The translations under genes were made by a program, and so were the position numbers. 54,947 bases of DNA, from positions 1 to 54,947 of the IMG/VR virus record IMGVR_UViG_3300000553_000051. One strand, 5' to 3'. The stretch comes from a virus. The notes beneath the pieces were generated by a model. The model did not search any database and was not told where the DNA came from. It saw nothing but the letters and a program-made list of their open reading frames with translations. The stretch's first letter is position 1. Every line of letters begins with the position of its first letter. Below, piece after piece: positions 13,609 through 54,645 of this stretch.

Positions 13609-13612
13609 AATT

Positions 13613-14029: not shown

Positions 14030-14078
14030 TTTTTTATTAAAAATTAAGCAGTAATTTTTTTTATTCGAAAACTATCCG

Positions 14079-14366: not shown

Positions 14367-14369
14367 GTT

Positions 14370-14920: not shown

Positions 14921-14929
14921 AAATATATC

Positions 14930-14999: not shown

Positions 15000-15015
15000 A
15001 CAAAATAAATATAAA

Positions 15016-15405: not shown

Positions 15406-15415
15406 AAAATAAAAA

Positions 15416-15529: not shown

Positions 15530-15583
15530 GTTATAAAAAACTTGATTTTTTACCAACCCAGTTCTGAAAAGACTGGGTTTTTT
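15520..15583 (+). promoter_or_regulatory. attenuator-like module 2
   Basis: AACTGGGT (15520), ACCCAGTT (15556) and ACTGGGTT plus T6 (15572). Segment 2 pairs with either flank over 8 bp, so an antiterminator and a terminator exclude each other. Downstream lie about fifteen tRNA genes with no other clear promoter before 16.29 kb, so this element may set their transcription. Confidence 0.65.
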
Positions 15584-15632
15584 GTTTATAATAGAATTTA
15601 GGTTCTTTGACATCTTGGAAATTAAAATAAAT

Positions 15633-31274: not shown

Positions 31275-31778
31275 ATGAAAAATAAAATTATACCATTCTC
31301 TTTATTTGAAGGTTTTGATAATGGTGATATTGGAATTAAAGATAAAGAACCAACAATTGAATTTTTAAATAAATTATTATCTAATCATTTTGTGTTATTT
31401 ATGAAAATATGGAATTTTCATTGGATAATAGTAAGTAAAAGATTTGGACCGCTTCATAGTTTTTTTAATGATTTGTATGATAAATTTTTTAATGATATTG
31501 ATGGTATCGCAGAAAGAATAAGAATGATTGGTGGAAGACCTATAGGTACATTAGAAGGTTATTTAAAAGAAACTGAATTAAAAGAATATACAGATTCTTC
31601 TGTTCCTGATGATACAAAAATGATTAAAGAAATTTTAGAAAATTATGAAACTATCATTAAACAAATAAGGAAATTTTTAGAAGATGAAAAAATGGATAAT
31701 GGAACCAGTAAATATTTAGAAGATTTAATTGAAGAACATGAAAAAGATGCTTGGATGTTAAGATCACACTTAGAGTAA
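31275..31778 (+). CDS. Dps/ferritin-like protein with tag-like N-terminus
   Basis: 167 residues, the Dps length. IWNFHWIIVSKRFGPLHSFF supplies His49 and His61, and DIDGIAERIRMIGGRP supplies Asp76 and Glu80, the residues of the inter-subunit ferroxidase site. Dps dodecamers bind DNA and oxidise iron with peroxide. The first 14 residues (MKNKIIPFSLFEGF) lie before the fold and resemble the MKxIxxFxE module, so the protein may be packaged. Late-type promoter before it and a terminator after it. Confidence 0.85.
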   Translation: MKNKIIPFSLFEGFDNGDIGIKDKEPTIEFLNKLLSNHFVLFMKIWNFHWIIVSKRFGPLHSFFNDLYDKFFNDIDGIAERIRMIGGRPIGTLEGYLKETELKEYTDSSVPDDTKMIKEILENYETIIKQIRKFLEDEKMDNGTSKYLEDLIEEHEKDAWMLRSHLE

Positions 31779-38235: not shown

Positions 38236-38666
38236 AAATTTTTCCTTATTTCCATTAATGTTTTTCCTAAATTATTTTGTGATTTGTAATGTTGACAAGT
38301 ATCACAAGTACAATTTCCCCATACATTGTCATGCCAGTAATTGGTTTCTTCTAAATATGCATCACCTGTAGCAAGTAATAGTTGTTTAAGTTCTTCATCT
38401 TTAAATTTTTCAATCAAGACTTCTCGCATCACATTGAATTTTATAGTATTCCAATCAAGTCTCATAGTAATCTTTTGACCTCTTTTCTTTGCGTCATTGG
38501 GTGTCGGTGACATTCTAACAAATTCATGATCTTCTTCATTTGTTGCTTTGAAAGCCTGATAAGCATGTTCAGAGGATTGATAAGTTTTGCCTTTATAAGT
38601 AAATTCTTTCACATGAAAATTACTTAAAAATCTGTATTCCTTGAAAAATCCCTCTATTGCTTTCAT
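38232..38666 (-). CDS. NADAR (YbiA-like) protein
   Basis: 144 residues, the usual length. It has EYRFLSNFHVKEFTYKGKTY, SSEHAYQAFKA and ATGDAYLEETNYWHDNVWGN, the NADAR/YbiA signature. NADAR proteins are N-glycosidases that remove ADP-ribose from guanine or act on NAD-linked compounds, and phage copies may counter ADP-ribosyl-based host defence. An inserted CTCDTCQHY may bind metal. First gene of a three-gene unit with HAD-like and unknown partners. Confidence 0.88.
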   Translation of the reverse strand: MKAIEGFFKEYRFLSNFHVKEFTYKGKTYQSSEHAYQAFKATNEEDHEFVRMSPTPNDAKKRGQKITMRLDWNTIKFNVMREVLIEKFKDEELKQLLLATGDAYLEETNYWHDNVWGNCTCDTCQHYKSQNNLGKTLMEIRKNL

Positions 38667-38735: not shown

Positions 38736-39075
38736 ATGAAATATTTAGCCTTATATGAGAATTTTATAACTGATTTATTCAAGAAGAAAAATGTCCGACA
38801 TATTGATTTTAGGCACAAACACAGTTTAGATCCAGAACCTGATGATACATATCTTCATGAAGTAAAAGATATTGTTAAAAGGAAAAAAGATAATGAACTT
38901 GGAATGATTTTCGCGAGAGGACAAGAAAGGTGTAAATAAATATTGGGTTGATTTTAATGATTTTCAAGAAAAATGGGTATCAAAACTGGATTGTTCATAT
39001 ACGGAAGATGAAATAGAAAAACCTACGACAGATGAAATAGAATTATATAATGATATGAAAAAATATAATGTTTAA
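38736..39075 (+). pseudogene. frameshifted MKxIxxFxE/KKYNV cassette gene
   Basis: The frame from ATG 38736 (MKYLALYENFITDLFKKK) stops at 38939. The +1 frame from about 38915 continues GVNKYWVDFNDFQEKWVSKL and ends NDMKKYNV at TAA 39073-39075. One base restores a protein of about 112 residues with both the head and the tail module. Next start 1 base downstream. Confidence 0.65.
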
Positions 39076-39076
39076 T

Positions 39077-39463
39077 ATGAAAATAGAGAAATATACGGAA
39101 TTTTTAAATGAAGCAATAACTAAAAAATTCTTTAAGAAAGGTAATCATTATAAAATGTCAAATATTCCAGATTTTGAAGGTCAACCTATGCCTGATATGT
39201 ATTTTCATGTAAATTCTATTGGTCATGAAAAAGGTACAGATTATTTAGATGTTAGATTGTTTTTATTGGACGAAAAAAGTTTTGATGATACAGTATTTGT
39301 TATTAAATCATTTGATGAAAATAATATAAAAATTGAGGATCTTGGTGATATGACTGAAAAAGATGAAGATAACTATTATAATGGTATACCACCAGAAGAC
39401 CTTTCAATTCCGAAACATTTTTCACCAGAAGAAAGAGGAGATGTAAAAAAATATAATTTATGA
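39077..39463 (+). CDS. MKxIxxFxE/KKYNL cassette protein
   Basis: 128 residues from ATG 39077; an ATG three codons earlier falls in the previous gene's tail. Head MKIEKYTEFLNEA, tail DVKKYNL. The middle (YLDVRLFLLDEKSFDDTVFV) is unlike the other cassette proteins. The TGA overlaps the next ATG. Function unknown. Confidence 0.75.
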   Translation: MKIEKYTEFLNEAITKKFFKKGNHYKMSNIPDFEGQPMPDMYFHVNSIGHEKGTDYLDVRLFLLDEKSFDDTVFVIKSFDENNIKIEDLGDMTEKDEDNYYNGIPPEDLSIPKHFSPEERGDVKKYNL

Positions 39464-39783
39464 AGCATTTAACATTATATGGAAATTTTATAACTAATTT
39501 GTTTAAGAAAAAACATAAAGATACACCTTTGAATGATGAATCAGAAATTGATATAACAAAATTATTTGAATACTATGGTTATAGTTTATATGACAGAAGT
39601 GCGAAAAAAGACAAAGCAATGTTAAATATTTTTAAATATTTAGAATCAAAAATAAAGAATCAATATATAGAACTTTATGATAAAAATGATAATATAATTC
39701 AAAGTATGTTTTATGTATATAGGATTGAAATATCAAATGCTAATATTGATTCAAGATTACGAAGTTACAGGAAAAAAATATAA
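39460..39783 (+). CDS. MKxIxxFxE cassette protein, tail out of frame
   Basis: 107 residues, head MKHLTLYGNFITNLFKKK (close to the gene at 38736). It ends YRKKI at TAA 39781-39783. A run of seven A precedes TATAATTTATG; with six, the end would read KKYNL and overlap the next ATG as in the other cassettes. So the end is probably shifted by one base. Confidence 0.7.
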   Translation: MKHLTLYGNFITNLFKKKHKDTPLNDESEIDITKLFEYYGYSLYDRSAKKDKAMLNIFKYLESKIKNQYIELYDKNDNIIQSMFYVYRIEISNANIDSRLRSYRKKI

Positions 39784-39786
39784 TTT

Positions 39787-40413
39787 ATGAAGCATTTAGA
39801 AACATTTGAATTTCATATAATAAACGAAAGTTTTGATTATGAATTGCTTATGGAAGATAAGAAATTTAGTATTTATAGAACTGTTCAAGATAAGATAATT
39901 AAAAAATTAGGATTGAATTTATATTTTGTTGGTACATTTCAAATGGGTGTAACTGTCTTATATCCTGTAATTGAAGCACTTGTAAAAAATTCAAATATAC
40001 CGGCGATAGGACCAGAACAAATTGTATTATTAACAATATTTGCTATTGCTCAGATTCTTCATCTTGCAACTGAAGATGTTCAAAAAATTCAATCAGAATT
40101 AGAAAAAAATGATTTAACTTCACTTGTAGAAAAGGTTAAACAATCTTTATTGTCATTATATAAGATATTTAGTTTCGTATCGAGAAGTTTTGGAAAAATA
40201 GTGGATGTTTTTACTGATATGTTAGCGTATGTGGGTTTAGGTGTGCCAATATATATGGCAATAATAGAGATAATTTCTAAAGAAGGATTAAATTTAGATA
40301 CATTGCCACAAAAAGTACTGATATTTGGTGTAGGAGCAGGAGCATTTGCCTTTAAAAGTTTGATTGAAGTTATTGTAAATATATTAAAAAATAAATTTAA
40401 AAAACAAATTTAA
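39787..40413 (+). CDS. membrane protein with tag-like N-terminus
   Basis: 208 residues. Head MKHLETFEFHIINE. Hydrophobic segments at about 55-75, 80-100, 148-165 and 176-198. No recognised family. A hydrophobic protein with a capsid-targeting-like start would be a candidate for ejection into the envelope, but this is only inference. Confidence 0.65.
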   Translation: MKHLETFEFHIINESFDYELLMEDKKFSIYRTVQDKIIKKLGLNLYFVGTFQMGVTVLYPVIEALVKNSNIPAIGPEQIVLLTIFAIAQILHLATEDVQKIQSELEKNDLTSLVEKVKQSLLSLYKIFSFVSRSFGKIVDVFTDMLAYVGLGVPIYMAIIEIISKEGLNLDTLPQKVLIFGVGAGAFAFKSLIEVIVNILKNKFKKQI

Positions 40414-40446
40414 TTCTTTTTCATATACTAAAGAAAAATAACACTC

Positions 40447-41628
40447 GTGGTCACTCCAACTGAGGATGGAATTTCTCAATTCATTTCAAAAGATTTCCAA
40501 TATCTTACACAGCAAAATAAAATTCAATACAAAGGCATAAATTTAAAATGCACTTATCTCATTAATATTATACATGAATTATTAGTAAAATATTATTTCA
40601 GCAATAATCTAGAAATAAAATTTAATTTATCATCTACAATTCTTCGTAAAAAATACGGAGAATATTATAATTATTATATAAATTATTTATGTGAAAATGG
40701 GTTTATGAGTTTAGTTTCAAAATATTATGTCGGCAAAAAAACAAATTCATATAAGCTTGATACTAAGTATGTTTACGATGTTGTACGATGGAAAAGTTAT
40801 GATAAATTTATATTAAAAAAATGTAAAAATAGATATGAAACATCTATAACTGAAATGACTCAAAATCTGATTTGCATCGATGTGAAAAAAAGACTGGTGG
40901 AATCATTAAATAAAATTCAAATAGATTATGAAGGTGCTATGAATTTTTTAACTACATTAAAAAATAATGATCTAATAGAAGATTCGAAATATTTTTCTAA
41001 TTTATTATCTGTTGATAATATAAGTTTAAATAATATCTATTTTAATTTTGATGATTTCGGTAGATTTCACACAAATTATACGATTCTTAAAAAAGAAATA
41101 AGAAATTCATATTTAACAATTAACAATGAAATCCTAACCGAAATTGATATAAAAAATTCACAACCACTTTTTTTTGCAGCATTATTGAAGGAAGAATTAA
41201 CAATCATAAATAAAGACACACAAAAATATTTTGATCTTGTGAAAGCCGGACTTCTTTATGATGATATTGTCGAAAATTCAGATGTAGAAACTAGGAATGA
41301 TGCTAAAGAATTAATTTATAAAGTTTTATTTGGTAGAAATAGAGAAACTAAAAAAGAAAATAAAATTTTTAAAAAACTCTATCCATCAATATATGAATAT
41401 ATTCTGGAATTTAAAGATTTAAGAGATAATTATAAAGAATTGTCGCATGAATTACAAAAAATGGAAAGTCAATTTATTTATAATAAAGTCATTAAGGAGA
41501 TATATGACACTTATCCAAACATTGTTTTATTTACTATTCATGATTCTATTATGTTTCCTATGTCTTATAAAGAAAAAATAGAAACAATATTCAATAAACA
41601 CTTTCAAGATTTGATAAAAAATATTTGA
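40447..41628 (+). CDS. divergent family-A polymerase-like protein
   Basis: 393 residues from a GTG start (no ATG in the first 80 codons). The C-terminal 170 residues hold three spaced motifs of the Pol A/T7 RNA polymerase palm and fingers: EIDIKNSQP (Asp234, motif A), RNDAKELIYKVLFG (Arg283, Lys287, then FG; the R-x3-K-x7-(Y/F)G O-helix, motif B) and FTIHDSIMF (His365-Asp366, motif C, HDS as in T7-type RNA polymerases). An QKMESQFI segment sits where Pol A has the Q-helix. The first 230 residues are unassigned. I have seen the NSQP/HDS pattern in uncharacterised Bacteroidota mobile-element proteins. It could be a DNA polymerase, primase or RNA polymerase. Confidence 0.6.
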   Translation: MVTPTEDGISQFISKDFQYLTQQNKIQYKGINLKCTYLINIIHELLVKYYFSNNLEIKFNLSSTILRKKYGEYYNYYINYLCENGFMSLVSKYYVGKKTNSYKLDTKYVYDVVRWKSYDKFILKKCKNRYETSITEMTQNLICIDVKKRLVESLNKIQIDYEGAMNFLTTLKNNDLIEDSKYFSNLLSVDNISLNNIYFNFDDFGRFHTNYTILKKEIRNSYLTINNEILTEIDIKNSQPLFFAALLKEELTIINKDTQKYFDLVKAGLLYDDIVENSDVETRNDAKELIYKVLFGRNRETKKENKIFKKLYPSIYEYILEFKDLRDNYKELSHELQKMESQFIYNKVIKEIYDTYPNIVLFTIHDSIMFPMSYKEKIETIFNKHFQDLIKNI

Positions 41629-41637
41629 AAATAAAAA

Positions 41638-41650
41638 TTAATATATAAAA
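41638..41650 (+). promoter_or_regulatory. TTAATATATAAAA late-type promoter candidate
   Basis: The motif lies 15-27 bases before the TTG start at 41665. Confidence 0.45.
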
Positions 41651-41664
41651 TAAAATTCAAATAT

Positions 41665-42663
41665 TTGAAGACTTATTTTAATTTTCTTAATGAAAACTCT
41701 GAGACATCAGACACTTTACACGAAAGAATAAGAAAGATTTTAAGAACTTATGGAACAATACCCATCACTAAGGATAATGCAACTGAAATCATTCAAAGAA
41801 TTGTAGGTAGTGAAGTTAAATATAAAACTGATTTACAACATCCAACACATTTCAATCGCCCAATAATAGGTCAGGATTCAGATTTTGGTTTAATGAAGCC
41901 TTCTAATAAAATTAGAATGTATGATTATTTGAGTAGTTTAATTAAAACTAAAACTATAAGGGGTGATAGTTTCGAAGGTTTAATTGCAGGATTATATAAT
42001 GGTATAACTGCACAAAAGAAAGATAAAAATTCTTCAAGTAAATGGGACGTTGAATTATCAGACGGTAAAAAAATCAGTGTTAAATTTTTAGATAGTAGTA
42101 CCGAAAGACCTGTTTTAGGCAATATAAAATCAGTTATTGATAAAATGTATCCTACACTTAAAAATTTACCTCTTAATGAGGTTTTAGCAAAAATTGGAAA
42201 TAATCAAGCAAGGAAGATGTTGAATGTCGCATTTGGTGATGTAACACATTTTTTATTCGCATATCCAGAAGGATTGAATATCAAATGTTTATTATTCGAA
42301 AGAGCTAGTTTAATTTTCAGATATATTGAAAAATCAGATGTTAGATATGCACCAAAACAAAAGGGTTCATATCAAATAAGAATTAATTTTAATAATTTAC
42401 TTCCACCTAGAAAAACTGATTTATCATGGACTCTTTATGCACCTAAACCAACAGAAGAAGATTTTAAATATTTAGAAATGAGCAATATTGATAAATCAAA
42501 GAAATTATTTGGCAGTGATTCTTATAGAATCAGAGGTTCTATATTAAATGCGATTCTGAAATATGGTGAATTTGTAAATATGAGAGATCCTTTTGATGAT
42601 GAAGGAACAAAAGATTATTTTGTTTTTGATTATGAAAAATATAAAGAAGAAAGAGGACATTAA
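41665..42663 (+). CDS. predicted PD-(D/E)XK-type nuclease with capsid-targeting-like start
   Basis: 332 residues from TTG 41665. The head MKTYFNFLNENSE is the closest in this window to the T4 internal-protein signal MKTYQEFIAEA. GDSFEGLIAGLYNG, then SKWDVELSDGKKISVKFL at about 128-145, gives E...D...SVK, the order of a restriction-type nuclease core. The rest is unassigned. If packaged and ejected it could attack host DNA or process phage DNA. Catalytic residues need alignment. Confidence 0.55.
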   Translation: MKTYFNFLNENSETSDTLHERIRKILRTYGTIPITKDNATEIIQRIVGSEVKYKTDLQHPTHFNRPIIGQDSDFGLMKPSNKIRMYDYLSSLIKTKTIRGDSFEGLIAGLYNGITAQKKDKNSSSKWDVELSDGKKISVKFLDSSTERPVLGNIKSVIDKMYPTLKNLPLNEVLAKIGNNQARKMLNVAFGDVTHFLFAYPEGLNIKCLLFERASLIFRYIEKSDVRYAPKQKGSYQIRINFNNLLPPRKTDLSWTLYAPKPTEEDFKYLEMSNIDKSKKLFGSDSYRIRGSILNAILKYGEFVNMRDPFDDEGTKDYFVFDYEKYKEERGH

Positions 42664-43265
42664 TTTTCAAATTGTAATTTTAGTCTGCTTAATTTATATT
42701 TTCTCATTGCAACTTTGACATCATAATTTTCAAAAAAGTGTTGTTTAAAATTATTTCCGGGGTTAGCAACTTCTACATGAATCACATAACCTTCTTTATC
42801 TACAATTTGATACAATTCTAATTTTTTTAAAAAAGTTTTTTCTATAATAATTTCTTCAAAGGGATGGTTTAAATCATCAAGTTTTTTCTCTATAGGCACA
42901 AACCATATACCAGCAAAATAACTCATATTATTTGGATAGAATTTTCCATTTATTATGATTCCGTATTCAAAAGAAATATTAAAATTTTTGTTTTGTATTA
43001 ATTTTTTATATGCTGAAAAGAAAACTTGAAAATTAGGTTGATAATTATATGTACAATAAACTATAGTGCTATCATCATTTATATCATAGAATTTCAGATA
43101 TTTAAGATCAAATCCTATTTCTTTAAATTTATTTAATAGTTCACTATAAGTAATAGGTGCAAATTTATCTTGTTTGATTTTTGATATCAAAAAACTGTAA
43201 TCAAAAGGAATATCATTCCAGAATGGTTGATATTTGAAATTGATATGTATGGTATCGTGGTACAT
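42660..43265 (-). CDS. unknown protein with RKYKLSRLKL tail
   Basis: 201 residues, aromatic-rich, beta-rich centre (TIVYCTYNYQPNFQVFF). It ends MRKYKLSRLKLQFEN, the basic tail module. Convergent with the predicted nuclease (4-base overlap) and overlapping the next minus-strand gene by one base. Function unknown. Confidence 0.72.
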   Translation of the reverse strand: MYHDTIHINFKYQPFWNDIPFDYSFLISKIKQDKFAPITYSELLNKFKEIGFDLKYLKFYDINDDSTIVYCTYNYQPNFQVFFSAYKKLIQNKNFNISFEYGIIINGKFYPNNMSYFAGIWFVPIEKKLDDLNHPFEEIIIEKTFLKKLELYQIVDKEGYVIHVEVANPGNNFKQHFFENYDVKVAMRKYKLSRLKLQFEN

Positions 43266-43459
43266 TATTCTTCCTCAGGTTTAATTCTAAATTCTTCATC
43301 ACAAAGTTCTGATGTTCCATCAAATATACCATCAGTATTAATTAAATCAATCCATTTTTCATATTCAGAAAACATATTCAAACAATTAATTTTAATTTGT
43401 ATGATTTTTCCATTTTTATGTGCCTCTTCAAGTTCTTTAAGATTCTTTTTTTCAAACAT
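43265..43459 (-). CDS. small acidic protein
   Basis: 64 residues (FEKKNLKELEEAHKNGKIIQ ... FRIKPEEE). No family recognised. Between a small membrane protein gene and the tail-bearing gene at 42660. Confidence 0.65.
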   Translation of the reverse strand: MFEKKNLKELEEAHKNGKIIQIKINCLNMFSEYEKWIDLINTDGIFDGTSELCDEEFRIKPEEE

Positions 43460-43469
43460 ATAAATTATT

Positions 43470-43673
43470 TTATGATGTAATTAAAAATGCTAATATATTG
43501 CCAACTATAACCACAAATGCCGCGATTCTAACATAATCACATATTGTTGCTATTGACATTTGAAATTTCCATAGAGTTGGTGATATTTCATTCCATTTCA
43601 TTGATAAATTCATCCATTCCATCATCATTCTTATACCACGAGGATGTACCATCCACAACAAGAAAGTTTTCAT
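43470..43673 (-). CDS. small membrane protein
   Basis: 67 residues, one C-terminal transmembrane segment (IAAFVVIVGNILAFLI) and a Met/Trp-rich N-terminal part. No family recognised. Confidence 0.6.
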   Translation of the reverse strand: MKTFLLWMVHPRGIRMMMEWMNLSMKWNEISPTLWKFQMSIATICDYVRIAAFVVIVGNILAFLITS

Positions 43674-43680
43674 ATTTAAT

Positions 43681-44025
43681 TCATTTTAAGAGTTTTACAA
43701 AAGTGTTATCAATCAATTTTTTAGAAGATTTATCCCATTCAACAAAGAAATCGTTTTTTTCAAATGCCTTAACTTTATCAATAAAATTTTTATCTTCAGG
43801 AATACGGACATAATCAGATACAATAGAATCGTTGCAAACCTTAGCATATTTTTTCATATCTTCCTTATATTTGTTTTTAAGGTCAGAATAGAGGTCAAGT
43901 AAATTATCAGTATCTAATGCAGGATTATTCTTCTGAAGTTCATCATAAACTGGTTCAAAGGGTTTTACAACTGCTCTACGATTGTAATAGAGTACGAGTT
44001 CGAAATCTTCAATATATTCTGTCAT
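43681..44025 (-). CDS. unknown helical protein
   Basis: 114 residues, charged and helical (DELQKNNPALDTDNLLDLYS ...). Promoter TACTTTTG at 44048 stands 23 bases upstream, so this gene probably begins the unit that runs to 42660. Function unknown. Confidence 0.7.
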   Translation of the reverse strand: MTEYIEDFELVLYYNRRAVVKPFEPVYDELQKNNPALDTDNLLDLYSDLKNKYKEDMKKYAKVCNDSIVSDYVRIPEDKNFIDKVKAFEKNDFFVEWDKSSKKLIDNTFVKLLK

Positions 44026-44047
44026 ATTTTTTCATTTATCGTTAATG

Positions 44048-44055
44048 CAAAAGTA
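44048..44055 (-). promoter_or_regulatory. Bacteroidota-type promoter (TACTTTTG)
   Basis: TAnnTTTG box on the minus strand, then TTAACGAT, before the gene at 44025. Confidence 0.55.
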
Positions 44056-44079
44056 CGAAAAATTATTGGAATAAAAAAA

Positions 44080-44803
44080 TTATTGGGATCTTTGATAAAG
44101 CCAAATTTGATGATCTAATAATCTTGGATTGATATTACCTATCATTTCACAAACTTGTATTATCATCTCTCATCTCTCTGATCTTGTATTTATCTGGTGA
44201 ATAACCAATTGCGTCTATCATGAATCTAATCATCATTCTATCAACCTTAACAAAAGTTTCATCACCAGCCAGCATGAAAAAATAATCTAATGAAATACCA
44301 GTTGTTTGCCCTGGTATTTTTCTAATTTCACTTTCAAGTTCTTCATTACCAATAAATTGTTGCAAATCTTGAAAATAATTTATGCCAAAATTATTTAATG
44401 TTTTAGCAAAAAGGTAGACTGCTTCTGCTTTTGTGACGGCTTTTGCACCATGTGTTGCAGTTCTACATCTATTTTGATAAACTTTAATCGCCATTTGTTG
44501 GGGAGTTTCTTCTTCTGTTCTTTGTATTAAGTCTTCTAAAGAATCTTGTTCACTAATTGAGGGATAATTATCTGAATCTCTAAATAGCTTCAAATCATAA
44601 TATTCATTATATCTTTCTACTGCTTTTCTAGTTTGCTCATAACTTATTCCAATTGAGAATACTGCATCAATAACACAACTTGTAATGCTTTGATAATAAT
44701 ATTCCTTACCTAATTCAGCATTTTTAAGTTTTAAATTTTTCATACAAAAATGATATAATTTGGTTATATCGTTTTGATTTTCAAATAGTTTAATGTATTT
44801 CAT
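44080..44803 (-). pseudogene. HhH-GPD DNA-glycosylase-like gene, frameshifted near 3' end
   Basis: Head MKYIKLFENQND. Then SITSCVIDAVFSIGISYE and IRKIPGQTTGISLDYFFMLA with VKVDRMMIRFM, the helix-hairpin-helix and following Asp of the HhH-GPD base-excision glycosylase fold. The frame ends at 44147 (218 residues). A neighbouring frame continues IQVCEMIGNINPRLLDHQIW and LYQRSQ to TAA 44080, the expected end of the family. A 7-base AGATGAG-type duplication is the likely cause. The uninterrupted product would still contain the core fold. Confidence 0.6.
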
Positions 44804-45180
44804 AAGTTATATTTTTTAATATCTGAATATGTATCAGGATTTTTTAAGAATATTAAAAGATCCTTGAATTGCTTATGTGTTAATCCAACTTCTAAACTTT
44901 CATTATAATCCTTGTTTGGATAATATAATATAATCATTTTATATTTAGGATTGTCTAATAATTCGTATGATGTTACCCAAGAAGATTGATTATCGACGAG
45001 ATTATCATCATAACCAAAATCTCTAATAATTTCAGGATTTAGAATTAAATATTTAATTAATAATAGCAATAATTCATTTTCTTCTGTATGAATATATTTT
45101 TTCATCGCAGCAATTTTATCAAATTTTGCCTGTGTCCAAGTTTCATTTTCTATGCTTTCTTTAAATTTACTAATTTTCAT
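44800..45180 (-). CDS. MKxIxxFxE/KKYNL cassette protein
   Basis: 126 residues. Head MKISKFKESIENE, tail YSDIKKYNL (codons AAC TTA TGA), stop overlapping the next ATG. The middle (LLLLLIKYLILNPEIIRDFG) is unlike other members. Function unknown. Confidence 0.75.
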   Translation of the reverse strand: MKISKFKESIENETWTQAKFDKIAAMKKYIHTEENELLLLLIKYLILNPEIIRDFGYDDNLVDNQSSWVTSYELLDNPKYKMIILYYPNKDYNESLEVGLTHKQFKDLLIFLKNPDTYSDIKKYNL

Positions 45181-45462
45181 TTATAAATTATATTTTTTTA
45201 CAATTTTACCAAAATCAGGGCTCGAAAAATTACATTCAAAATCATCTGTTAAATCCCATAACATCATAAATGCTTCTAAATATTGATTCTGTTTATTTGT
45301 TAATTTATCTGAATATTGATCTTCTGCTGAAAGTTGTTCTAATCCTTCTGCGTCACACCATAATTGGTATGATGCTGATAAATAATCTATCATACTTCTA
45401 TCATAACCAAGTTCTTTGTAATATGGAATTTCTGACGATTCGTTAAATCTTTTAATCTTCAT
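45181..45462 (-). CDS. MKxIxxFxE/KKYNL cassette protein
   Basis: 93 residues from ATG 45462 (MKIKRFNESSEI), preferred to an ATG three codons earlier because of the shared head. Tail GKIVKKYNL, stop TAA directly before the next ATG. Upstream lies one copy of the dispersed repeat. Confidence 0.75.
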   Translation of the reverse strand: MKIKRFNESSEIPYYKELGYDRSMIDYLSASYQLWCDAEGLEQLSAEDQYSDKLTNKQNQYLEAFMMLWDLTDDFECNFSSPDFGKIVKKYNL

Positions 45463-45467
45463 GAACC

Positions 45468-45490
45468 ACAATTGTTTTCTTTGACGGACT
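45468..45490 (-). repeat. dispersed repeat copy 2 (short)
   Basis: GTCCGTCAAAGAAAACAATT on the minus strand, between two cassette genes. Shared with 5971-6010 and 54830-54884. Confidence 0.7.
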
Positions 45491-45844
45491 TTATAAATTA
45501 TATTTATATGCTTCTATTTTTGCTTCATAATCTTCAATTTCATCAGGTGCCATATTAATATATCCCATAAATTGAAAGCCACGTGATATCATCTCTTGAT
45601 ATGACCGTGACCAATACCATTGTGTCTTTCCTTTTTCGAGTAAATTTGTTCTTGTTTTAAAAGAACAAACAAGTATAAATTCTTCTTCTTGGAAGTAACT
45701 GTCTAACTGGATTTGTTTAATTTTATCGTCGTTACAAATAGATCCAATTATATCAACACAATCGTTATATCTATCATCAGTTGGTACCACCCAATATTGT
45801 TTTTGAAAAATTTCAAATCTTTCAAATTGTTGTAAGTATTTCAT
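45491..45844 (-). CDS. MKxIxxFxE/KYNL cassette protein
   Basis: 117 residues. Head MKYLQQFERFEIFQKQYW, tail EAYKYNL (codons AAT TTA TAA). The stop is separated from the next gene by the repeat. Function unknown. Confidence 0.75.
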   Translation of the reverse strand: MKYLQQFERFEIFQKQYWVVPTDDRYNDCVDIIGSICNDDKIKQIQLDSYFQEEEFILVCSFKTRTNLLEKGKTQWYWSRSYQEMISRGFQFMGYINMAPDEIEDYEAKIEAYKYNL

Positions 45845-46284
45845 AGGTTATATTTTTTAATATCTTTTCTTCTCTGTTTTACATCATTAAGAATTTTTCT
45901 ACCTTCACCTGTCGGATCACCTCTCCTTTTATATTTATTAATTAATTCTGCTAACCAAGGTTCAATATTAGAACCTTTACCTTCCACATCTTCTCTAATT
46001 TCTTTTGGAAGCCAAATATGATAAAGGATAGCATCATGTTGAAGTCTTGCTCTCATTTGCAACATTTGCATAGCATTAACACTTTGTTTATCTCCTGTTA
46101 TTCTAACCATATTTTCAATGGCTATAGTTTTTTTATATAGACCATTTTCGGCTTCTTCAAATTTTTCACTTGCTAGAAATATATAAAAATCATGAGTTTC
46201 ATTATCAGGATTTTCGGCTAATAGATCAGCCAATAATTCATCTTCGTCTTCTTCTTTTGTTTCAAATTTTTTAATATGTTTCAT
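45841..46284 (-). CDS. MKxIxxFxE/KKYNL cassette protein
   Basis: 147 residues. Head MKHIKKFETKEEDEDELLAD, tail RRKDIKKYNL (codons AAC CTA TGA). The middle is helical (QMLQMRARLQHDAILYHIWL). ATGA overlap with the next gene. Function unknown. Confidence 0.75.
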   Translation of the reverse strand: MKHIKKFETKEEDEDELLADLLAENPDNETHDFYIFLASEKFEEAENGLYKKTIAIENMVRITGDKQSVNAMQMLQMRARLQHDAILYHIWLPKEIREDVEGKGSNIEPWLAELINKYKRRGDPTGEGRKILNDVKQRRKDIKKYNL

Positions 46285-46673
46285 AAGTTATATTTATTTA
46301 TATTTTTGTAGATATCCATATCGTTCATATAATCAACAAGTTCATTAATTTGATCTGTTGTAAGAAAAACTTCATCACTCTCATCCCCGTCATCCCATCT
46401 AAGTTTAACCTCTATTTTTCCCTTGATGCCGGTGTTTTGAATTTTATATACATCAAATAAATTTTCTGAACCAAAATCTTTGCCATATATTTCTATGATT
46501 GCTTTTAAATTAGTTGGTAATAATTCCTTATTGTATATTAAAAATTCTTCCATTCTTCTATGTAGATATTGTTCTTTGATATACATATCATCTCTTTCTA
46601 TAAGAAAGTTTAATACTTTATCCTTAGACCAGTCTGTTTTTTGTGCGGTCTCATTAAATTTTCTGATTTTCAT
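46281..46673 (-). CDS. MKxIxxFxE/KYNL cassette protein
   Basis: 130 residues. Head MKIRKFNETAQKTDW, tail KNINKYNL (codons AAC TTA TGA). The C-terminal part (VKLRWDDGDESDEVFLTTDQ) resembles that of the gene at 44800 (HKQFKDLL), so these two may be distant paralogues. Confidence 0.75.
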   Translation of the reverse strand: MKIRKFNETAQKTDWSKDKVLNFLIERDDMYIKEQYLHRRMEEFLIYNKELLPTNLKAIIEIYGKDFGSENLFDVYKIQNTGIKGKIEVKLRWDDGDESDEVFLTTDQINELVDYMNDMDIYKNINKYNL

Positions 46674-47161
46674 AAATTATATTTATTTGCGTCTTTGTGT
46701 ATTAAATATTCTGCATATTCATCAGGAAATAATTCTTTGATCATTTCTTTATATTTTGGAGTAAGCCTTGTAAAAAAATCTGGAGCATTAAGTCTATTTA
46801 TGGTTGAACGATTTTTACCTTTATAAGATATTTCACGACTTATATTTGTATTCCAATTTGCACCGGCTTTAATTAATTGCTCAATTGTTTTTATATTTGG
46901 TGACATTGCACATTGCGTTAATGCTGTTTCACCATCATTATTCTCCGAATTAATATCAGCACCAGCATTTATAAATTCTCCAATTAATCGGTGTTTATTA
47001 TTAAATGCAGCAATCATTAAAGGTGTATCACCATCTTGATTTCTTATATTTAAATCACCTCCAAATTGAATATATTTTAAGACACCTTTTGTGTCTCCTC
47101 CACGGACTAATGCAAATATATCTAAATCTATTTTCTTTTCAAATGTTTTAATATATTTCAT
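46670..47161 (-). CDS. ankyrin-repeat protein with head and tail modules
   Basis: 163 residues. Head MKYIKTFEKKIDLDIF, then about three and a half ankyrin repeats: IRNQDGDTPLMIAAFNNKHR, INSENNDGETALTQCAMSPN and KTIEQLIKAGANWNTNI. Tail DANKYNL. Ankyrin repeats bind proteins. As a possibly ejected protein it could target a host factor (inference). Overlaps the ribbon-helix-helix gene by ATGA. Confidence 0.85.
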   Translation of the reverse strand: MKYIKTFEKKIDLDIFALVRGGDTKGVLKYIQFGGDLNIRNQDGDTPLMIAAFNNKHRLIGEFINAGADINSENNDGETALTQCAMSPNIKTIEQLIKAGANWNTNISREISYKGKNRSTINRLNAPDFFTRLTPKYKEMIKELFPDEYAEYLIHKDANKYNL

Positions 47162-47301
47162 TTTATCATTCTGTTTTTTAATTCTTTTTTAATTAAGTCC
47201 TCTACAAATTTAGATTTATTGCCGATTCTCAAATTTATTAAATGTTCTTTTAACATTGCTTCCACTTCGGAATCAACGGTTATTGTAATTTTCTTCTTCA
47301 T
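47158..47301 (-). CDS. ribbon-helix-helix protein
   Basis: 47 residues: a basic strand KKKITITVDSEVEAML followed by two helices (INLRIGNKSKFVEDLIKKEL), the MetJ/Arc/CopG fold. It likely binds DNA as a dimer. Divergent from a second ribbon-helix-helix gene at 47402 across 100 bases that hold two late-type promoter motifs, so the pair may regulate this boundary. Confidence 0.7.
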   Translation of the reverse strand: MKKKITITVDSEVEAMLKEHLINLRIGNKSKFVEDLIKKELKNRMIK

Positions 47302-47318
47302 AATGATATATTTTCTAT

Positions 47319-47389
47319 GTTATATATTAAAATTTAATTAATGATTTTTATTTTTGACTTTTTTTGACTTTTTTATATTTATATATAGA
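47319..47389. promoter_or_regulatory. divergent late-type promoter candidates
   Basis: TTTTAATATATAAC on the minus strand (47319-47332) and TTTATATATAGA on the plus strand (47378-47389), back to back between the two ribbon-helix-helix genes. TTTTTGACTTT occurs twice between them, a possible operator. Confidence 0.45.
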
Positions 47390-47401
47390 ATAAAACCAAA
47401 T

Positions 47402-47572
47402 ATGAGACGAAAAACAAAAACAGAATTATCTATATCATTAGATGATAGCATCATTAAAATTTTGAATGAAGAATTTGAAAATCGTTCAAAATTTATTGAA
47501 TATTGTATTATAAAAGAATTAGAAAACAATGATGTATTTAGAAAAAGAATTGAAAAATCAATTATATTTTAA
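47402..47572 (+). CDS. ribbon-helix-helix (CopG-like) protein
   Basis: 56 residues from ATG 47402, chosen because the promoter lies in the longer frame. TELSISLDDSIIKILNEEF and NRSKFIEYCIIKELENN give strand-helix-helix. The last base of its stop is the first base of the endonuclease ATG, so it is likely a regulator co-expressed with that gene. Confidence 0.75.
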   Translation: MRRKTKTELSISLDDSIIKILNEEFENRSKFIEYCIIKELENNDVFRKRIEKSIIF

Positions 47573-48660
47573 TGAAAAGACAATCAACAGAATATTTTAT
47601 TGAAAAAGCAATACAAAAACACGGGAATAAATATGATTACTCACTATTCGATTATAAAAATAACAGAACAAAAGTAAAAATAATATGTCCTACTCATGGT
47701 ATGTTTGAACAGGATCCAAGTTCTCATTTGAACGGTAATAATTGTAAATTGTGTTATTTAATTTCAAAAAATTCAACTACAGAAGAATTTATAAAAAAAG
47801 CAAAAAAAATACATGAGGATAGATATGACTATTCATTAGTTGATTATATAAACGCAAAAACGAAAATTAAAATAATTTGTTCTGAACACGGTATTTTTGA
47901 ACAAGAGCCTAGACTGCATTTATCCGGTCAAAATTGTCCAAGATGTAATATTATAACAAGTGAAAAATTTATTAAAAATGCAAAAATTGTTCGAGGTAAT
48001 AGATATGATTATTCACTAGTCGAGTATAAAAATAATAGCACAAAAATTAAAATAGTTTGTAATATACATGGTATTTTTGAACAAACACCAGCAAACCACA
48101 TAACTTGTAAACATGATTGTCCAAAATGTTCATGTTTATTATCAAATACAAAAGATTTTATAACAAAATCAAATATTATTCACGAAAATAAATATGATTA
48201 TTCTTTAGTTGATTATAAAAATAATAGGACAAAAGTTAAAATAACATGCTTAAAACATGGTGTTTTCGAGCAACTTCCAAGTTCTCATTTAAATAAGCAA
48301 GGATGTCCCATATGTAATGAATCTAAAGGTGAAAATATGATAAAAAAATATTTTAAAGATAATAATATTAAATATAATAGTCAAAAAACTTTTGATGGTT
48401 GTAATTATAAATATCCATTACGGTTTGATTTTTACTTAATAGAACATAATATATGTGTTGAATATGATGGCATGCAACACTTTAAACCTATTGATTATTT
48501 TGGTGGTATAGACACATTTAATTATATTTTATTAAAAGATAAAATAAAAAATGAGTATTGTAAAAAAAATAATATAAAATTGATAAGAATAAAATATGAT
48601 GATAATATTATAGAAAAACTTATAAATCAATTAGTTTTTTCGTATATAGAAAAACCATAA
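47572..48660 (+). CDS. EDxHD-type homing endonuclease with four zinc-finger repeats
   Basis: 362 residues. Four repeats of about 60 residues, each with YDYSLVDYKNN-TK(V/I)KI, C..HG-FEQ.P..HL and a closing CPxC, a treble-clef zinc unit. The C-terminal 115 residues have RFDFYLIEHNICVEYDGMQH, then DxxKNxYC and LIRIKYDD: the PD-(D/E)XK/EDxHD nuclease of the I-Bth0305I class. The repeats should read DNA. A free-standing homing endonuclease is most likely, with a restriction or defence role possible. Confidence 0.8.
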   Translation: MKRQSTEYFIEKAIQKHGNKYDYSLFDYKNNRTKVKIICPTHGMFEQDPSSHLNGNNCKLCYLISKNSTTEEFIKKAKKIHEDRYDYSLVDYINAKTKIKIICSEHGIFEQEPRLHLSGQNCPRCNIITSEKFIKNAKIVRGNRYDYSLVEYKNNSTKIKIVCNIHGIFEQTPANHITCKHDCPKCSCLLSNTKDFITKSNIIHENKYDYSLVDYKNNRTKVKITCLKHGVFEQLPSSHLNKQGCPICNESKGENMIKKYFKDNNIKYNSQKTFDGCNYKYPLRFDFYLIEHNICVEYDGMQHFKPIDYFGGIDTFNYILLKDKIKNEYCKKNNIKLIRIKYDDNIIEKLINQLVFSYIEKP

Positions 48661-49480
48661 AACTTGTCATAATTTTCTCTCTTGACCATTTCTCAATCAT
48701 TACAGGTATATTTAAGTATTCATTATATTTATTTGAATATTCAGTTTCATAGTCAAGTAAAAAGGTATTAAAGATTGTCAAAGAATCAGCCTTAACTATT
48801 TTATTATAAAGTTTGAATGGATCTTTTTCTTTCTGTTTGTTTTTGAATTCATCAACTTCTTTCGCTCTATCAACATTTATAAATAATATATTACGAATTT
48901 GTTCATCGGTTAAATTTTTCTTTACATTTTTTAGATGATTTACAATTATATCTGTAATAACACTTGCTTTTTTACCATACATCATTTTAACAATTCTAGT
49001 AAAACTTTCAGCAAATTCTTTTTTGAATTCATTTGTAATCCTTTGAAATTTAGATTCTTCCGCCCTAATTTTTCTTGTACCTGAGAATTCGTGTAGCCAA
49101 TTCCCAGAAATTAATTCATATATTTTACAACCTTTTTCAATCTTTTTTGTTATGTTAGTAATTGTATCTTTCACTCTTTCGATTCTTTGCCATTGTTCAT
49201 TTCCAAAATCATCTTTTTCAGTAATAAAATAACTTTCAATGTAAAATTCTTTTTCATATGAAAAAATAATAAATAATTTTTCTTTACAAATAGAAATTAA
49301 GAGAGTATTCTTAGGTTTATGTAATGCTGTTGTAATATCTTTTTTATATTTCAAAAATTTCCAATCAGCATCATCTGAAACAGCATAATTTCTTTGAATG
49401 CTTTGCATAACAGAGTAAGGTACACCAATACCTATCAGAGATGTTTTTTCAAAAAGTTTATATGATAACAAAAATTTCAT
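48620..49480 (-). CDS. unknown protein with tag-like N-terminus
   Basis: 286 residues. Head MKFLLSYKLFEKTSLIGIG. The middle has LISICKEKLFIIFSYEKEFY and GNWLHEFSGTRKI, the C-terminal half is helical. No family recognised. Convergent with the endonuclease, overlapping by 41 bases. A late-type promoter precedes it. A virion or ejected protein is possible. Confidence 0.7.
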   Translation of the reverse strand: MKFLLSYKLFEKTSLIGIGVPYSVMQSIQRNYAVSDDADWKFLKYKKDITTALHKPKNTLLISICKEKLFIIFSYEKEFYIESYFITEKDDFGNEQWQRIERVKDTITNITKKIEKGCKIYELISGNWLHEFSGTRKIRAEESKFQRITNEFKKEFAESFTRIVKMMYGKKASVITDIIVNHLKNVKKNLTDEQIRNILFINVDRAKEVDEFKNKQKEKDPFKLYNKIVKADSLTIFNTFLLDYETEYSNKYNEYLNIPVMIEKWSREKIMTSFMVFLYTKKLIDL

Positions 49481-49538: not shown

Positions 49539-51953
49539 ATGGCAAGTTTAGAGGAAATTGCTAAAAAAATAGAACAACAAAGACTTCAAAAATTGGAAGA
49601 AGAAAGAATTTTGGAGTATAAAAAATATGAAGAATTAGAAAAACAACGATTGTTCATGATGCAAGAAATGAACTATTATCAGAGTTTGCACGAAAGAATA
49701 GCAGTATCTACTTCAGTTTCTTCAGCTTCAGCCGGAGGAAATAAAATACCTACATATTTTACCATTGATGTTACACCACAATCAGATGGTGATAATATAA
49801 GTTTCTATATATTATCACCTTCTGCCGTTACATATGATTGGGGAGATGGGACAATAGATGATAATGATAATCATACATATACCACCGCTGGATCATATCA
49901 AATAAAAATTTCACCTATAAATATAACAGAACTTCAAATTGTTTCTATGTCTGATGGTATATATAGTGGACCTAAATTTAGTGAATTTCTAAATTTAACC
50001 AAATTAGTTGCTTTATGGATATTGACTGTAGGTTCAACAATAGAAAATGGTGCTCTAGATAATTGTAAAAAATTAGAAATGTTAGCTTTCAAATTTGGAG
50101 GACCATCACAACTTAAAAAATCTATGTTTAATAATTTGACATCATTAACAGATTTTGGTATCATTTATGGAAATACAATAAATTCATTTGAATCTGGAAT
50201 ATTTGAAGGAACAAGTATAGAAAACATATATATTTATGGTACGCCATTCACTAGTACGACATTAGTTGATCAATTTTTAATTGATTTAAATAATTCTATA
50301 TTACCAAATTTAAAATATATAACCACATACACACATAGAACAACAAATAGTGATGTTGCTGTTAGTGGATTAACAGAAAAGGGCGTAGAAGTTGATATTG
50401 TTGTTGATCTATCACCATTATTAATAACGGCATATAGCGACATGGATTTTAATTTTAATGCAACATTAGCATATTCATCACAAGGAAATGTGATGCATGT
50501 AGATTGGGGTGATGGTACATCAGAAGATTATAATAATGATTCAAAGAAAAAAGGAGGATGGGCTTATTTTACAAGTCATTCTTATGCTACTGGAGGAACA
50601 TATAATATTACAATAAATACACCATCAGAGGACGCTTTATATTTTTATATAGATGGACGCTACATATCAAATATAACATTTCCATCTTTGACAAGCCTTG
50701 AAACTTTATATCTAGAAAATTTACAAATATCAGATATTAATCTTTCACCGTTAACAGGATTATTATATTTATATCTTGATGATGGAAATTTCACAAGAAT
50801 ACCAAATTTAAGCAATTTGTCTAAATTAAAAGAATTGAATATGAGTGCAAATCCATTATCAGGTACATTATCTTTTAGTGGATTGAGTAATTTACAATAT
50901 CTTGATATTAGTAATAGTCAAATAACTTCTTTGGATGGTAGTGATTTTAGTGATCTAATAAATTTACTACAATTAAATATAAATTCAAATAGGATATCAA
51001 ATATACCAACTGGAATATTTAGTCATTTAAGTTCTTTAACTTATTTAGATTTTGAATATAATTCTATAACAAATTTACAATCTAATGTGTTTTCTGGTCT
51101 CACATCTCTTACAGATATCGTAGGTGATAATAATATTATATCAAATATTGAAATTGGAGCATTTAATGGATTAAATAGTATAGAAAATATAAATTTAGCA
51201 AACAATCAATTATCCGGATTAACATATGGTATATTTAGTGGTTTAACTAATTTTTCTGGAATGTTATATTTAGTGAATAATTATATATCAAGTCTACCAG
51301 ATGATATATTTGAGGATCTAATATCATTAAAATATTTATATTTAAATAATAATAGAATAAGTTCTTTGCAAAATGGTTTATTTGATGGATTGAATGATTT
51401 GATAGATTTAGCTTTCGATAATAACCAAATAGTAACTTTACCAAATTTTAATAAGATGTCATCCTTAATAAATATTAATTTTCAACAAAATTTGATAACT
51501 GGCATAACATCTAATACGTTCACTAATATCTCATCAGCCATTCATATTGCTTTGACAAATAATAATATATCCTTTATTGATACCAACTCTTTTATAAATA
51601 ATACAGGATTAACAACTTTAGATTTAAGTAGGAATAAATTAACATCGTCCGGATTGGTTGACGGATCTTTCTATGGTTTAAATAATTTAGAATATTTGTA
51701 TTTATATTATAATAATTTACAAGGCATAGATCCAATGGTGTTTCAAGGAGTTAATGCACAATCTAATATAAATTTATATAGTTGTTATTTAACTACTACA
51801 GATGTAGATAATCTTCTTATAAGATTTAACAACACTGGTCGAAATCATTGTACATTAGATTTTCATGATGAATCTAGAACACATGATAGTGATGATGCTA
51901 TAAACAATTTAGTAACAACCTGGTCTTGTACTGTTTATTGTAACATTGGTTAA
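49539..51953 (+). CDS. large PKD plus leucine-rich-repeat protein
   Basis: 804 residues. An N-terminal charged helix of about 50 residues (coiled coil) leads to a first PKD-like domain with VTYDWGDGTIDDN...HTYTTAGSYQI, a second one at about 300-370 (HVDWGDGTSEDYN...HSYATGGTYNI), and then some fifteen leucine-rich repeats of about 24 residues (LxxLxxLxLxxNxIxxL, with bacterial-type GxFxGLxxL). No signal peptide. Probably a virion surface or receptor-binding fiber protein whose N-terminal coil attaches to the particle. The sulfotransferase gene follows by 16 bases. Confidence 0.85.
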   Translation: MASLEEIAKKIEQQRLQKLEEERILEYKKYEELEKQRLFMMQEMNYYQSLHERIAVSTSVSSASAGGNKIPTYFTIDVTPQSDGDNISFYILSPSAVTYDWGDGTIDDNDNHTYTTAGSYQIKISPINITELQIVSMSDGIYSGPKFSEFLNLTKLVALWILTVGSTIENGALDNCKKLEMLAFKFGGPSQLKKSMFNNLTSLTDFGIIYGNTINSFESGIFEGTSIENIYIYGTPFTSTTLVDQFLIDLNNSILPNLKYITTYTHRTTNSDVAVSGLTEKGVEVDIVVDLSPLLITAYSDMDFNFNATLAYSSQGNVMHVDWGDGTSEDYNNDSKKKGGWAYFTSHSYATGGTYNITINTPSEDALYFYIDGRYISNITFPSLTSLETLYLENLQISDINLSPLTGLLYLYLDDGNFTRIPNLSNLSKLKELNMSANPLSGTLSFSGLSNLQYLDISNSQITSLDGSDFSDLINLLQLNINSNRISNIPTGIFSHLSSLTYLDFEYNSITNLQSNVFSGLTSLTDIVGDNNIISNIEIGAFNGLNSIENINLANNQLSGLTYGIFSGLTNFSGMLYLVNNYISSLPDDIFEDLISLKYLYLNNNRISSLQNGLFDGLNDLIDLAFDNNQIVTLPNFNKMSSLININFQQNLITGITSNTFTNISSAIHIALTNNNISFIDTNSFINNTGLTTLDLSRNKLTSSGLVDGSFYGLNNLEYLYLYYNNLQGIDPMVFQGVNAQSNINLYSCYLTTTDVDNLLIRFNNTGRNHCTLDFHDESRTHDSDDAINNLVTTWSCTVYCNIG

Positions 51954-53694: not shown

Positions 53695-54645
53695 TTATTC
53701 ATCAATCTCAAAAAAATCAGATGCATCATCTTTCTCACCGAATGTTGATTCATTATCTGATTCATTTGAATCAGATAAAGTGTTATCCGAAGATGCCCTA
53801 TTAATTTGTCTTTCGGACATATTAATATCATTTCCAACAAGAACTTCAAGTACTTGTGTGACTTTGTACTTATCTTCTGCTGTCCATTCTTTTGCAATAT
53901 GATCTTCTAGATTTACAGTGCGTTCCATTAAGAAACTTGTGATTTTCTCCTTAACTTTAGGATTTGTGATTTTATTTTTTCCGGTTTTTTCATCTACTTC
54001 AACAGGTGCTTTTTTACCCTGAATTTTAATAGGTGAAGCTGTTAAGAAAAGGCTTGAATCATAGTTTGGAAATTCACCAAGTTGTTTAATAACGAGATTA
54101 AAATCCTTCCCGTTTGCAAGATCAAAGATATTACATGCTGATTTATCTGCATTTATACCATCTTTTTCATTTTTGATCTTTTCTTTGATTTTGTAACCAT
54201 AAGGATAAATCATAATTTTGCCTTCTAAATCACGATTCTGTTCATCTTCCATAACGAGAATATATGAGTAATATTTAGTGCTGCGTCCAATTAATTCTGC
54301 CTTTTCAACATCGGATGCATTTTTTGAGTTTTTTAATTTCCAATACATTGTGCAAAGATCACATTTATCAACAAAATTCTTCATACAATCGTAGTATCCC
54401 ATCAATTCAGGATGGTTCTTAAAATCGACATAGTGTTGATGTTTTTCAATAGCTGATTGTAATACTTTTCCTTCTTTGGATAAATTAGGTAAAAATCTGA
54501 TTGTAGCTGTATAACCTTTTTTCTTGTCGGTTATTTTTGGACGGTAGATACCATCAAGGCTACTGCCTTTTTTTTCTAGAAAATCTAGTGTTTCACTTTT
54601 TGCGTCGATACTATCAAAAATATCAACATTTTCAATTTCTTTCAT
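53695..54645 (-). CDS. gp32-like single-stranded DNA-binding protein
   Basis: 316 residues against 301 in T4 gp32. HPELMGYYDCMKNFVDKCDL with the following C gives His78, Cys87, Cys95 and Cys98, the zinc-stabilised subdomain. Aromatic/basic OB-fold segments before and after (TATIRFLPNL, YYSYILVMEDEQN, KIMIYPYGYKIKE). The last 35 residues are Ser/Asp/Glu-rich (SDSNESDNESTFGEKDDASD), the acidic tail that recruits replication and recombination partners. It coats ssDNA in replication, recombination and repair. Core gene that ties this phage to the T4-like lineage. Confidence 0.85.
   Translation of the reverse strand: MKEIENVDIFDSIDAKSETLDFLEKKGSSLDGIYRPKITDKKKGYTATIRFLPNLSKEGKVLQSAIEKHQHYVDFKNHPELMGYYDCMKNFVDKCDLCTMYWKLKNSKNASDVEKAELIGRSTKYYSYILVMEDEQNRDLEGKIMIYPYGYKIKEKIKNEKDGINADKSACNIFDLANGKDFNLVIKQLGEFPNYDSSLFLTASPIKIQGKKAPVEVDEKTGKNKITNPKVKEKITSFLMERTVNLEDHIAKEWTAEDKYKVTQVLEVLVGNDINMSERQINRASSDNTLSDSNESDNESTFGEKDDASDFFEIDE

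Follow-up and report, generated by a model that had tools for sequence, protein, structure and literature searches.

The virus record IMGVR_UViG_3300000553_000051 of IMG/VR is a stretch of 54,947 bases, which was analyzed at its full length and is referred to below as the window. Many proteins encoded in the window start with a common short sequence, here called the head, and seven of them end with KYNL, one form of a C-terminal sequence K[YF]N[LI]-COOH, here called the tail. Heads and tails are linked to each other and are found on many different bodies, also in other viral contigs, and the existence of this tag system is secure. Because the head resembles the head-targeting signal of phage T4, the tagged proteins may be carried in the phage particle. 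Judged from sequence, we tentatively propose that a head similar to a capsid-targeting sequence (CTS) and the K[YF]N[LI] tail mark accessory proteins for recruitment to the prohead core, packaging and delivery, a reading that in our estimate falls just short of probable.

Genes were called using a simple longest-open-reading-frame (ORF) script (first ATG, ≥50 aa) and no gene finder, which yielded 101 ORFs in the window, 568 in a contig of 330,208 bp (G001) and 210 in a contig of 154,853 bp (G004). The contigs bearing tags are IMG/VR records and possibly fragments. Many loci were selected using a junction pattern, i.e., a tail overlapping the start of a head, which favors tagged genes, and the loci listed are a lower bound; G001 and G004 were themselves reached via such loci. 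Because of this selection, rates are quoted separately for G001, G004, the window and the huge phage record LR756504, while pooled sets remain for the body clustering and for the cleavage-site, residue-register, charge and strong-head counts.

Linked tags at the two ends of many proteins

The seven KYNL ends in the window belong to six consecutive minus-strand genes (47161 to 44800) and to a gene at 39077-39463; they were overlooked in the preliminary description of this DNA. ORFs ending with K[YF]N[LI] make up 102/568 in G001, 22/210 in G004 and 7/101 in the window. The corresponding DNA pattern, AARTWYAAYHTATRA, was found 104 times in G001, 24 times in G004 and 8 times in the window, vs 3, 1 and 0 matches, respectively, of the reversed control (2 vs 0 in T4). 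The G001 consensus is [NDS][TAS][NK]K[FY]N[LI]-COOH. Tail spelling is uniform or nearly so within these contigs (KYNL in 22/22 tails of G004 and 7/7 of the window; 92 KF and 10 KY in G001), which fits what would be expected if a common receptor recognized all tails of a phage. No comparable C-terminal tag was encountered in the literature searched. A distinct C-terminal motif is seen in the contig G003 (loci L084-L088, positions 1048-15587), where eleven proteins with partly alike starts end with R[FY]Gx or a variant thereof (RFSL, RFAI).

As for the head, the preliminary description counted at least twelve proteins between 38736 and 49480, and a by-eye count using a loose pattern gave 13. A scoring matrix, trained on 100 G001 proteins that were selected on the basis of their C-terminus, irrespective of the head, placed 6/101 window ORFs over threshold (0.44 expected), i.e., those starting at 38736, 39787, 44803, 45844, 46284 and 47161. 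The heads at 39460 and 49480 as well as the MKI-type heads are below threshold, and the gene at 41665, with a TTG start, is outside the ORF set that was scored; the MKI-type heads are supported by the tails of the same proteins. With the same matrix, 24/210 ORFs were found in G004 (0.9 expected), 6/104 in G003 (0.45 expected) and 34/836 in the first 600 kb of LR756504 (3.6 expected); the 91/568 in G001 are not independent because the training set came from this contig. Four remote heads that had been suggested at 14564, 15016, 29626 and 31275 all scored under the threshold.

The linkage of the two tags is seen in the ORF counts obtained with a strict head expression: in G001, both tags are present on 67 ORFs and neither on 455, while 11 have just the head and 35 just the tail (Fisher p 5e-49), and the equivalent numbers (both/head only/tail only/neither) are 12/8/10/180 in G004, 6/3/1/91 in the window and 1/4/2/97 in G003 (p 0.14). 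Many of the tail-only proteins begin M-I-x-x-F-x-x-[FY]-E, which is the head displaced by one residue. When the same choice of start and the same shift were applied to both groups, residue 4 was hydrophobic and residue 7 aromatic in 264/312 tailed vs 172/1580 untailed proteins. This register was also seen with plain first-ATG starts (tailed vs untailed: 87/103 vs 37/465 in G001, 14/24 vs 25/186 in G004 and 3/7 vs 13/94 in the window). Residue 8 is E in 243/312 tailed proteins.

After removal of the end residues, these 312 tailed proteins, a set without the LR756504 loci L106-L135, fall into 157 body clusters, of which 121 hold a single protein. The bodies had been described as unrelated, but not all of them are, since the products of 46281-46673 and 44800-45180 share a cluster. 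Recognizable tagged bodies include ankyrin and leucine-rich repeats, over the Pfam cut-off, and a DnaJ-type zinc finger, below it. Among the folds named earlier, ankyrin and Dps/ferritin were recovered by Pfam (the latter outside the interval 38736-49480), but the DNA-glycosylase and nuclease folds were without Pfam support. Two families have some of their best-conserved columns at the ends (tail K and N 1.00/1.00 and 0.98/1.00), while the body columns average 0.39 and 0.37. Of two genome fragments, 13.3% and 6.9% are taken up by tagged genes.

AlphaFold2 models of the ankyrin protein of the window and of a GDYV-family protein have confident bodies, and their mean predicted local distance difference test (pLDDT) scores are 56 and 46, respectively, over the first ten residues and 70 and 61 over the last three. 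In these models the head looks like a flexible addition to the body. A clasp formed between head and tail was considered and rejected, the head being unstructured in both models. A fold search using the GDYV-family model gave no match at E≤0.001, and weak resemblance to chromo/tudor-like barrels. Separately, similar proteins that start with MK..K[YF].RYSF[FL]N were observed in four contigs (L091:1529-2293, L080:16230-17195, L021 and L031), and the L091 member had no PHROG match.

Relatives of the window and the T4 targeting signal

The window record is probably a fragment of a larger genome. A T4-type gp32 is encoded by 53695..54645 on the minus strand (53698-54645, PF08804, E 1e-21), and its closest relatives are found in huge phage records, with 48% identity to that of LR756504 (636 kb) and 41-43% identity to those of LR745206, LR756502 and LR756501. 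On account of this gp32 similarity, the window phage is placed near these four 635-735 kb records, which we take to be genomes from Al-Shayeb et al., an assignment that agrees with their sizes. In PMC7162821, all of the largest genomes of that set are assigned to the Mahaphage clade, and the five genomes >634 kb have predicted Bacteroidetes hosts. Close relatives of two window proteins were found at 1 and 0 loci in viral_contigs, three tagged proteins had no match among named phages at E≤0.01, and the junction pattern was absent from 84,980 species genomes.

In the T4 record, the internal proteins IPII and IPIII begin with MKTYQEFIAEA and IPI with MKTFKEF. According to excerpts of PMC9026906, targeting by the IPIII head depends mainly on its N-terminal part, notably on residues 4 and 7, and processing on residues 8 and 10; the protease gp21 cuts after L/I-X-E, and the internal proteins are described as basic. 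The internal defense proteins of T-even phages are highly diverse, with the targeting sequence alone conserved (PMC3012670, in excerpt). The tagged proteins are like IPI, IPII and IPIII in having a short M-K head that is hydrophobic at residue 4 and aromatic at residue 7, in the placement of a common head before diverse bodies, in a minority (L/I)xE-type site and in the presence of T4-type virion head genes in relatives. They differ in number (dozens to about a hundred vs three in T4), in a residue 8 that is mostly E, in their acidic bodies, in the few cleavage sites among the tailed proteins and in the C-terminal K[YF]N[LI]. A loose head pattern, which does not require E, matches 9/334 T4 ORFs (≥60 aa), including all three internal proteins; four of the nine also have (L/I)xE at residues 7-24, and three of these four are the internal proteins. 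The string MKTYQEF was not met in the literature searched.

From their sequences, the heads appear to form two classes, cleavable-type and targeting-only. Cleavable-type heads with a (L/I/V)xE site are found in LR756504, e.g., MKNIQSFKEFLNE/S and MKFLKKFNSFVNE/S, where the slash marks the putative cut. Further examples are MKKLKDFESFVNE/A (L217) and MRTYQEFIKE/S (L025), the latter being one of the near-T4 heads with such a site in tagged contigs. In the first 600 kb of LR756504, [LIV]NE[ASGN] occurs at residues 6-24 in 11/137 loosely headed proteins, compared with 0/137 at residues 30-48 and 1/137 at residues 60-78, and at residues 6-24 in 6/556 other proteins. Among the loci listed, a cleavage site was found in 9/409 tailed vs 8/87 untailed proteins with strong heads (p 0.004) and in 30/524 vs 27/227 with loose heads (p 0.006). 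This comparison, from which L057-L065, L068-L073, L106-L139 and L141 are left out, covers at least 591 distinct tailed ORFs and includes near-identical copies across samples. The capsid protein gp23 carries H[QS][ILM]NE/N in four relatives and HQIHE/N in LR756504, and this H[QS][ILM][NH]E/N sequence is presumably its own cleavage site.

A gp21-like protease, portal and gp23 are found together in G004, which also harbors 22 tailed genes, and the gp21-like protease and gp23 are present in all four LR genomes, i.e., in phages with heads on their proteins and without the tail. A gp21-like prohead protease, which the preliminary description had suggested looking for in the rest of the genome, was not found in the window, where gp23 was not searched. 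LR756501 contains, besides the gp23-adjoining protease gene, a second, short gp21-like protease ORF at 11386-11790 (181 aa open frame). Among 13 tag-rich contigs, portal was found in one and gp32 in six, G004 not being one of the six. Because gp32 and gp23 are separated by ~180 kb in LR756504, it is plausible, yet unproven, that tags and virion head genes are split over separate contigs. A match of a headed G004 gene to phrog_2667, annotated "internal head protein" (E 0.013), was rejected; the family was also found in 5/14 control genomes at E≤1, and the genome search of G004 did not recover the match.

Encapsulin cargo-loading peptides consist of a few residues at the C-terminus and bring unrelated cargo proteins into a shell of the HK97 fold. 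These peptides differ from the tail described here in sequence, in belonging to cellular compartments and in lacking an N-terminal head, and binding of the tail to a shell is putative. The T4 protein Alt is, like the proposed cargo, internal and injected, and it is processed at both termini (PMC9026906, in excerpt), but it is a single protein whose C-terminal propeptide is cut by gp21, whereas the K[YF]N[LI] tail lacks an E for such a cut. In SPN3US and phiKZ, the large head contains many inner-head proteins along with the DNA, and gp53 and gp54 of SPN3US have identical first 15 residues. In contrast to the tagged proteins, their propeptides are often >100 residues long with other cleavage motifs, and a C-terminal tag was not met in the accessible part of PMC5694885, on which these statements on SPN3US and phiKZ draw.

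Tagged genes and other features of the window

Five headed genes are found on the plus strand. The first, 38736..38939, encodes the head MKYLALYENF and no tail. The product of 39077..39463 has the head MKIEKYTEFLNEA, with an LxE/A site (MKIEKYTEFLNE/A), and the tail KYNL with its stop at 39449-39463. The next gene, 39460..39783, starts with MKHLTLYGNF and ends with RKKI before the stop; the tail DNA AAATATAATTTATGA spans its end in another frame (39776-39790), and the remaining seven matches of the DNA pattern in the window are in-frame tails. The head MKHLETFEF of 39787..40413, without a tail, is followed by a cleavage-type site (MKHLETFEFHIINE/S), and relatives in L027 (58% identity) and L045 (59%) retain both head and site. 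At 41665..42663 (332 aa, no Pfam match), the head MKTYFNFLNE/N is the most T4-like of the window; it had been noted before and is present, but only with the TTG start, in frame with an ATG ORF at 41893. A cleavage-type site is thus carried by the products of 39787, 41665 and 39077, the last one being tailed.

On the minus strand, a weak head (MKFLLSYKLFE) without a tail is encoded by 48620..49480. The ankyrin gene 46670..47161 (head MKYIKTFEKK; tail KYNL and stop, 46670-46684), assigned by Pfam, opens the six-gene tailed array. It is followed by 46281..46673 (MKIRKFNET; KYNL and stop, 46281-46295), which has an ATGA overlap with the next gene, and by 45841..46284 (MKHIKKFETK; KYNL and stop, 45841-45855), which has tagged relatives in L100 and L052. 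The product of 45491..45844 (MKYLQQFERF; KYNL and TAA, 45491-45505) belongs to a 14-member body cluster, and 28 bases separate this gene from the start of the following one, 45181..45462 (MKIKRFNES; KYNL and TAA, 45181-45195). The array ends with 44800..45180 (MKISKFKES; KYNL and stop, 44800-44814). The gene 44147..44803 encodes the head MKYIKLFENQ without a tail, and from residue 11 onward the body matches phrog_29694, a family of unknown function. Outside this region, the Dps/ferritin-like product of 31275..31778 on the plus strand, identified by its body in Pfam, has a loose head (MKNKIIPFSLFEG), and its membership is uncertain.

A second, unrelated common N-terminal head, MKxRxGFVSNSSSSSF, begins seven plus-strand proteins between 5559 and 11542 (5559, 6614, 7128, 7534, 8002, 9416 and 10997), the bodies of which apparently differ. 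Furthermore, the 804-aa product of 49539-51953 contains many leucine-rich repeats and a PKD domain and may be a surface or tail protein. The product of 38232-38666 presumably resembles NADAR, and we take that of 8473-9414 to resemble GMP reductase/IMP dehydrogenase.

Proposed role of the tags and alternatives

In the packaging model, a T4-related huge phage would use the head in the manner of a capsid-targeting sequence and K[YF]N[LI]-COOH as a second tag at the opposite end of the same proteins. The two tags would label small accessory proteins, which form a numerous and variable set, for a single receptor that is made by the phage and is most likely the prohead core. Recruitment would proceed via the head, the tail providing a second contact, and the recruited proteins would be packaged with the DNA and then injected. 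Cleavable-type heads (MK..[IL]..F..F[LIV]NE/[ASGN]) would be removed by the gp21-like protease, while the putative targeting-only heads (MK[YH][IL]Kx[FY]E), which usually occur together with the tail, retain the residues for targeting and have no cleavage site. A more specific version, in which a targeting-only head and a C-terminal signal constitute a two-ended address that labels up to about a hundred different small proteins per genome for one particle, is conceivable, but we regard it as somewhat doubtful.

A number of observations weigh against packaging. The receptor, the packaging, the injection, the cleavage and the role of the tail are all inferred. That the head is then cut off, as had been suggested, is not supported for most tailed proteins because [LIVM]NE[ANSG] is present at residues 5-24 in 12/289 of them (the three stretches that follow give 0, 1 and 3); the looser [LIVM]xE[ANSG] is found at these residues in 46/289. 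There is no excess of [LIV]NE[ASGN] in headed vs other proteins of the tagged contigs (3/164 vs 9/301 in G001, 0/41 vs 1/148 in G004, 1/33 vs 1/43 in the window). The view of the head as a T4-type signal holds for the residue 4/7 register, but the loose pattern also matches six T4 ORFs other than the internal proteins, and a stricter pattern with E retains one of the nine T4 matches and misses all three internal proteins. No T4 ORF (≥60 aa, whole genome) ends with K[YF]N[LI], and AARTWYAAYHTATRA is at about control level in the four LR genomes (8/5, 7/6, 3/3 and 9/3 vs the reversed control). Tagged bodies have a mean net charge of -4.5 per 100 aa vs 0.0 for untagged ones, some loci have mixed tail spellings (L002, L023, L037), and T4 late-type promoters, TATAAATA, are not enriched ahead of tagged arrays. 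Virion head genes are scarce in the contigs searched: phrog_207 was found in 2/12 IMG/VR contigs (G004 and, weakly, G006) and in 0/14 of a second set, and gp23 was over the cut-off in 1/4 and then in 0/20 contigs (one sub-threshold match, G021).

The main rival is that the tags are an address for another phage-made machine in the infected cell, e.g., a replication compartment, a protease/chaperone or a membrane site, and that the T4 likeness is convergence on a short amphipathic helix. The scarcity of cleavage sites in tailed proteins, the acidic bodies, the lack of virion head genes in most tag-rich contigs searched, the lack of a tail in T4 and the six further T4 ORFs that fit the loose pattern would all be accommodated by such an in-cell address. 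On the other hand, the three internal proteins of T4 all fit this pattern, and tagged contigs contain near-T4 heads that have a cleavage site, such as that in L025; we consider this explanation rather unlikely, albeit one to be taken seriously. Far less probable is that one ancestral gene was duplicated many times and that the ends, conserved through common descent, do not serve as tags. There are indeed large clusters (61, 26, 14 and 13 members; up to 166 in another clustering), but the 157 clusters, the many singletons, the differing recognizable bodies and the two families in which the ends outlast the bodies make us give very little credence to such a paralogue origin.

It is also improbable, although less so than common ancestry, that the tail functions chiefly at the level of DNA or RNA, in the overlap of stop and start, in coupling translation or as homology for the exchange of cassettes, such that K[YF]N[LI] is a by-product and the head alone acts in the protein. 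Part of the tail conservation does act at the DNA level, which is a further point against packaging: in G001 tails, the third bases deviate from background in AAC (52/102, 13 expected), in A as the last base of the last codon (97/102, 60 expected) and in A at codon -6 (81/102, 50 expected), and the tailed gene overlaps the following gene in 56/102 cases. The excess of AAC is seen in KFN[LI] tails; in KYNL tails the codons for K, Y and N deviate little from background at their third positions, while the last codon ends with A and codon -6 prefers A. The ATGA stop/start overlap can explain part of this third-base bias, and codon usage in the G001 heads is about that of the background, except that TTC is rarer and TAC and CAC are commoner. 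However, the tail is a 3'-end feature of the tailed gene. The motif is found upstream of tailed genes with a tailed predecessor (65/71, 7/7 and 4/5 in G001, G004 and the window, respectively) and mostly not upstream of those without one (3/31, 0/15 and 0/2), and the tail was therefore rejected as an upstream signal for the following gene. In addition, no neighboring same-strand gene follows in 11/102 (G001), 4/22 (G004) and 0/7 (window) of the tails. Of the 165 G001 motif matches, 100 are in frame directly before a stop, 5 are at other offsets near an end and 60 are elsewhere. A pure DNA motif was not accepted, although the DNA-level constraint is real.

Many genes of huge phages are without known function, and a common tag groups dozens of their proteins into one class. 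If the prohead reads the tags, these would amount to a list of injected proteins, perhaps counter-defense or host take-over factors, and would offer loading signals for protein delivery; such a two-ended system would be many times larger than the T4 set of internal proteins. If the reader is something other than the prohead, the tags would point to another sorting system in infected bacteria.

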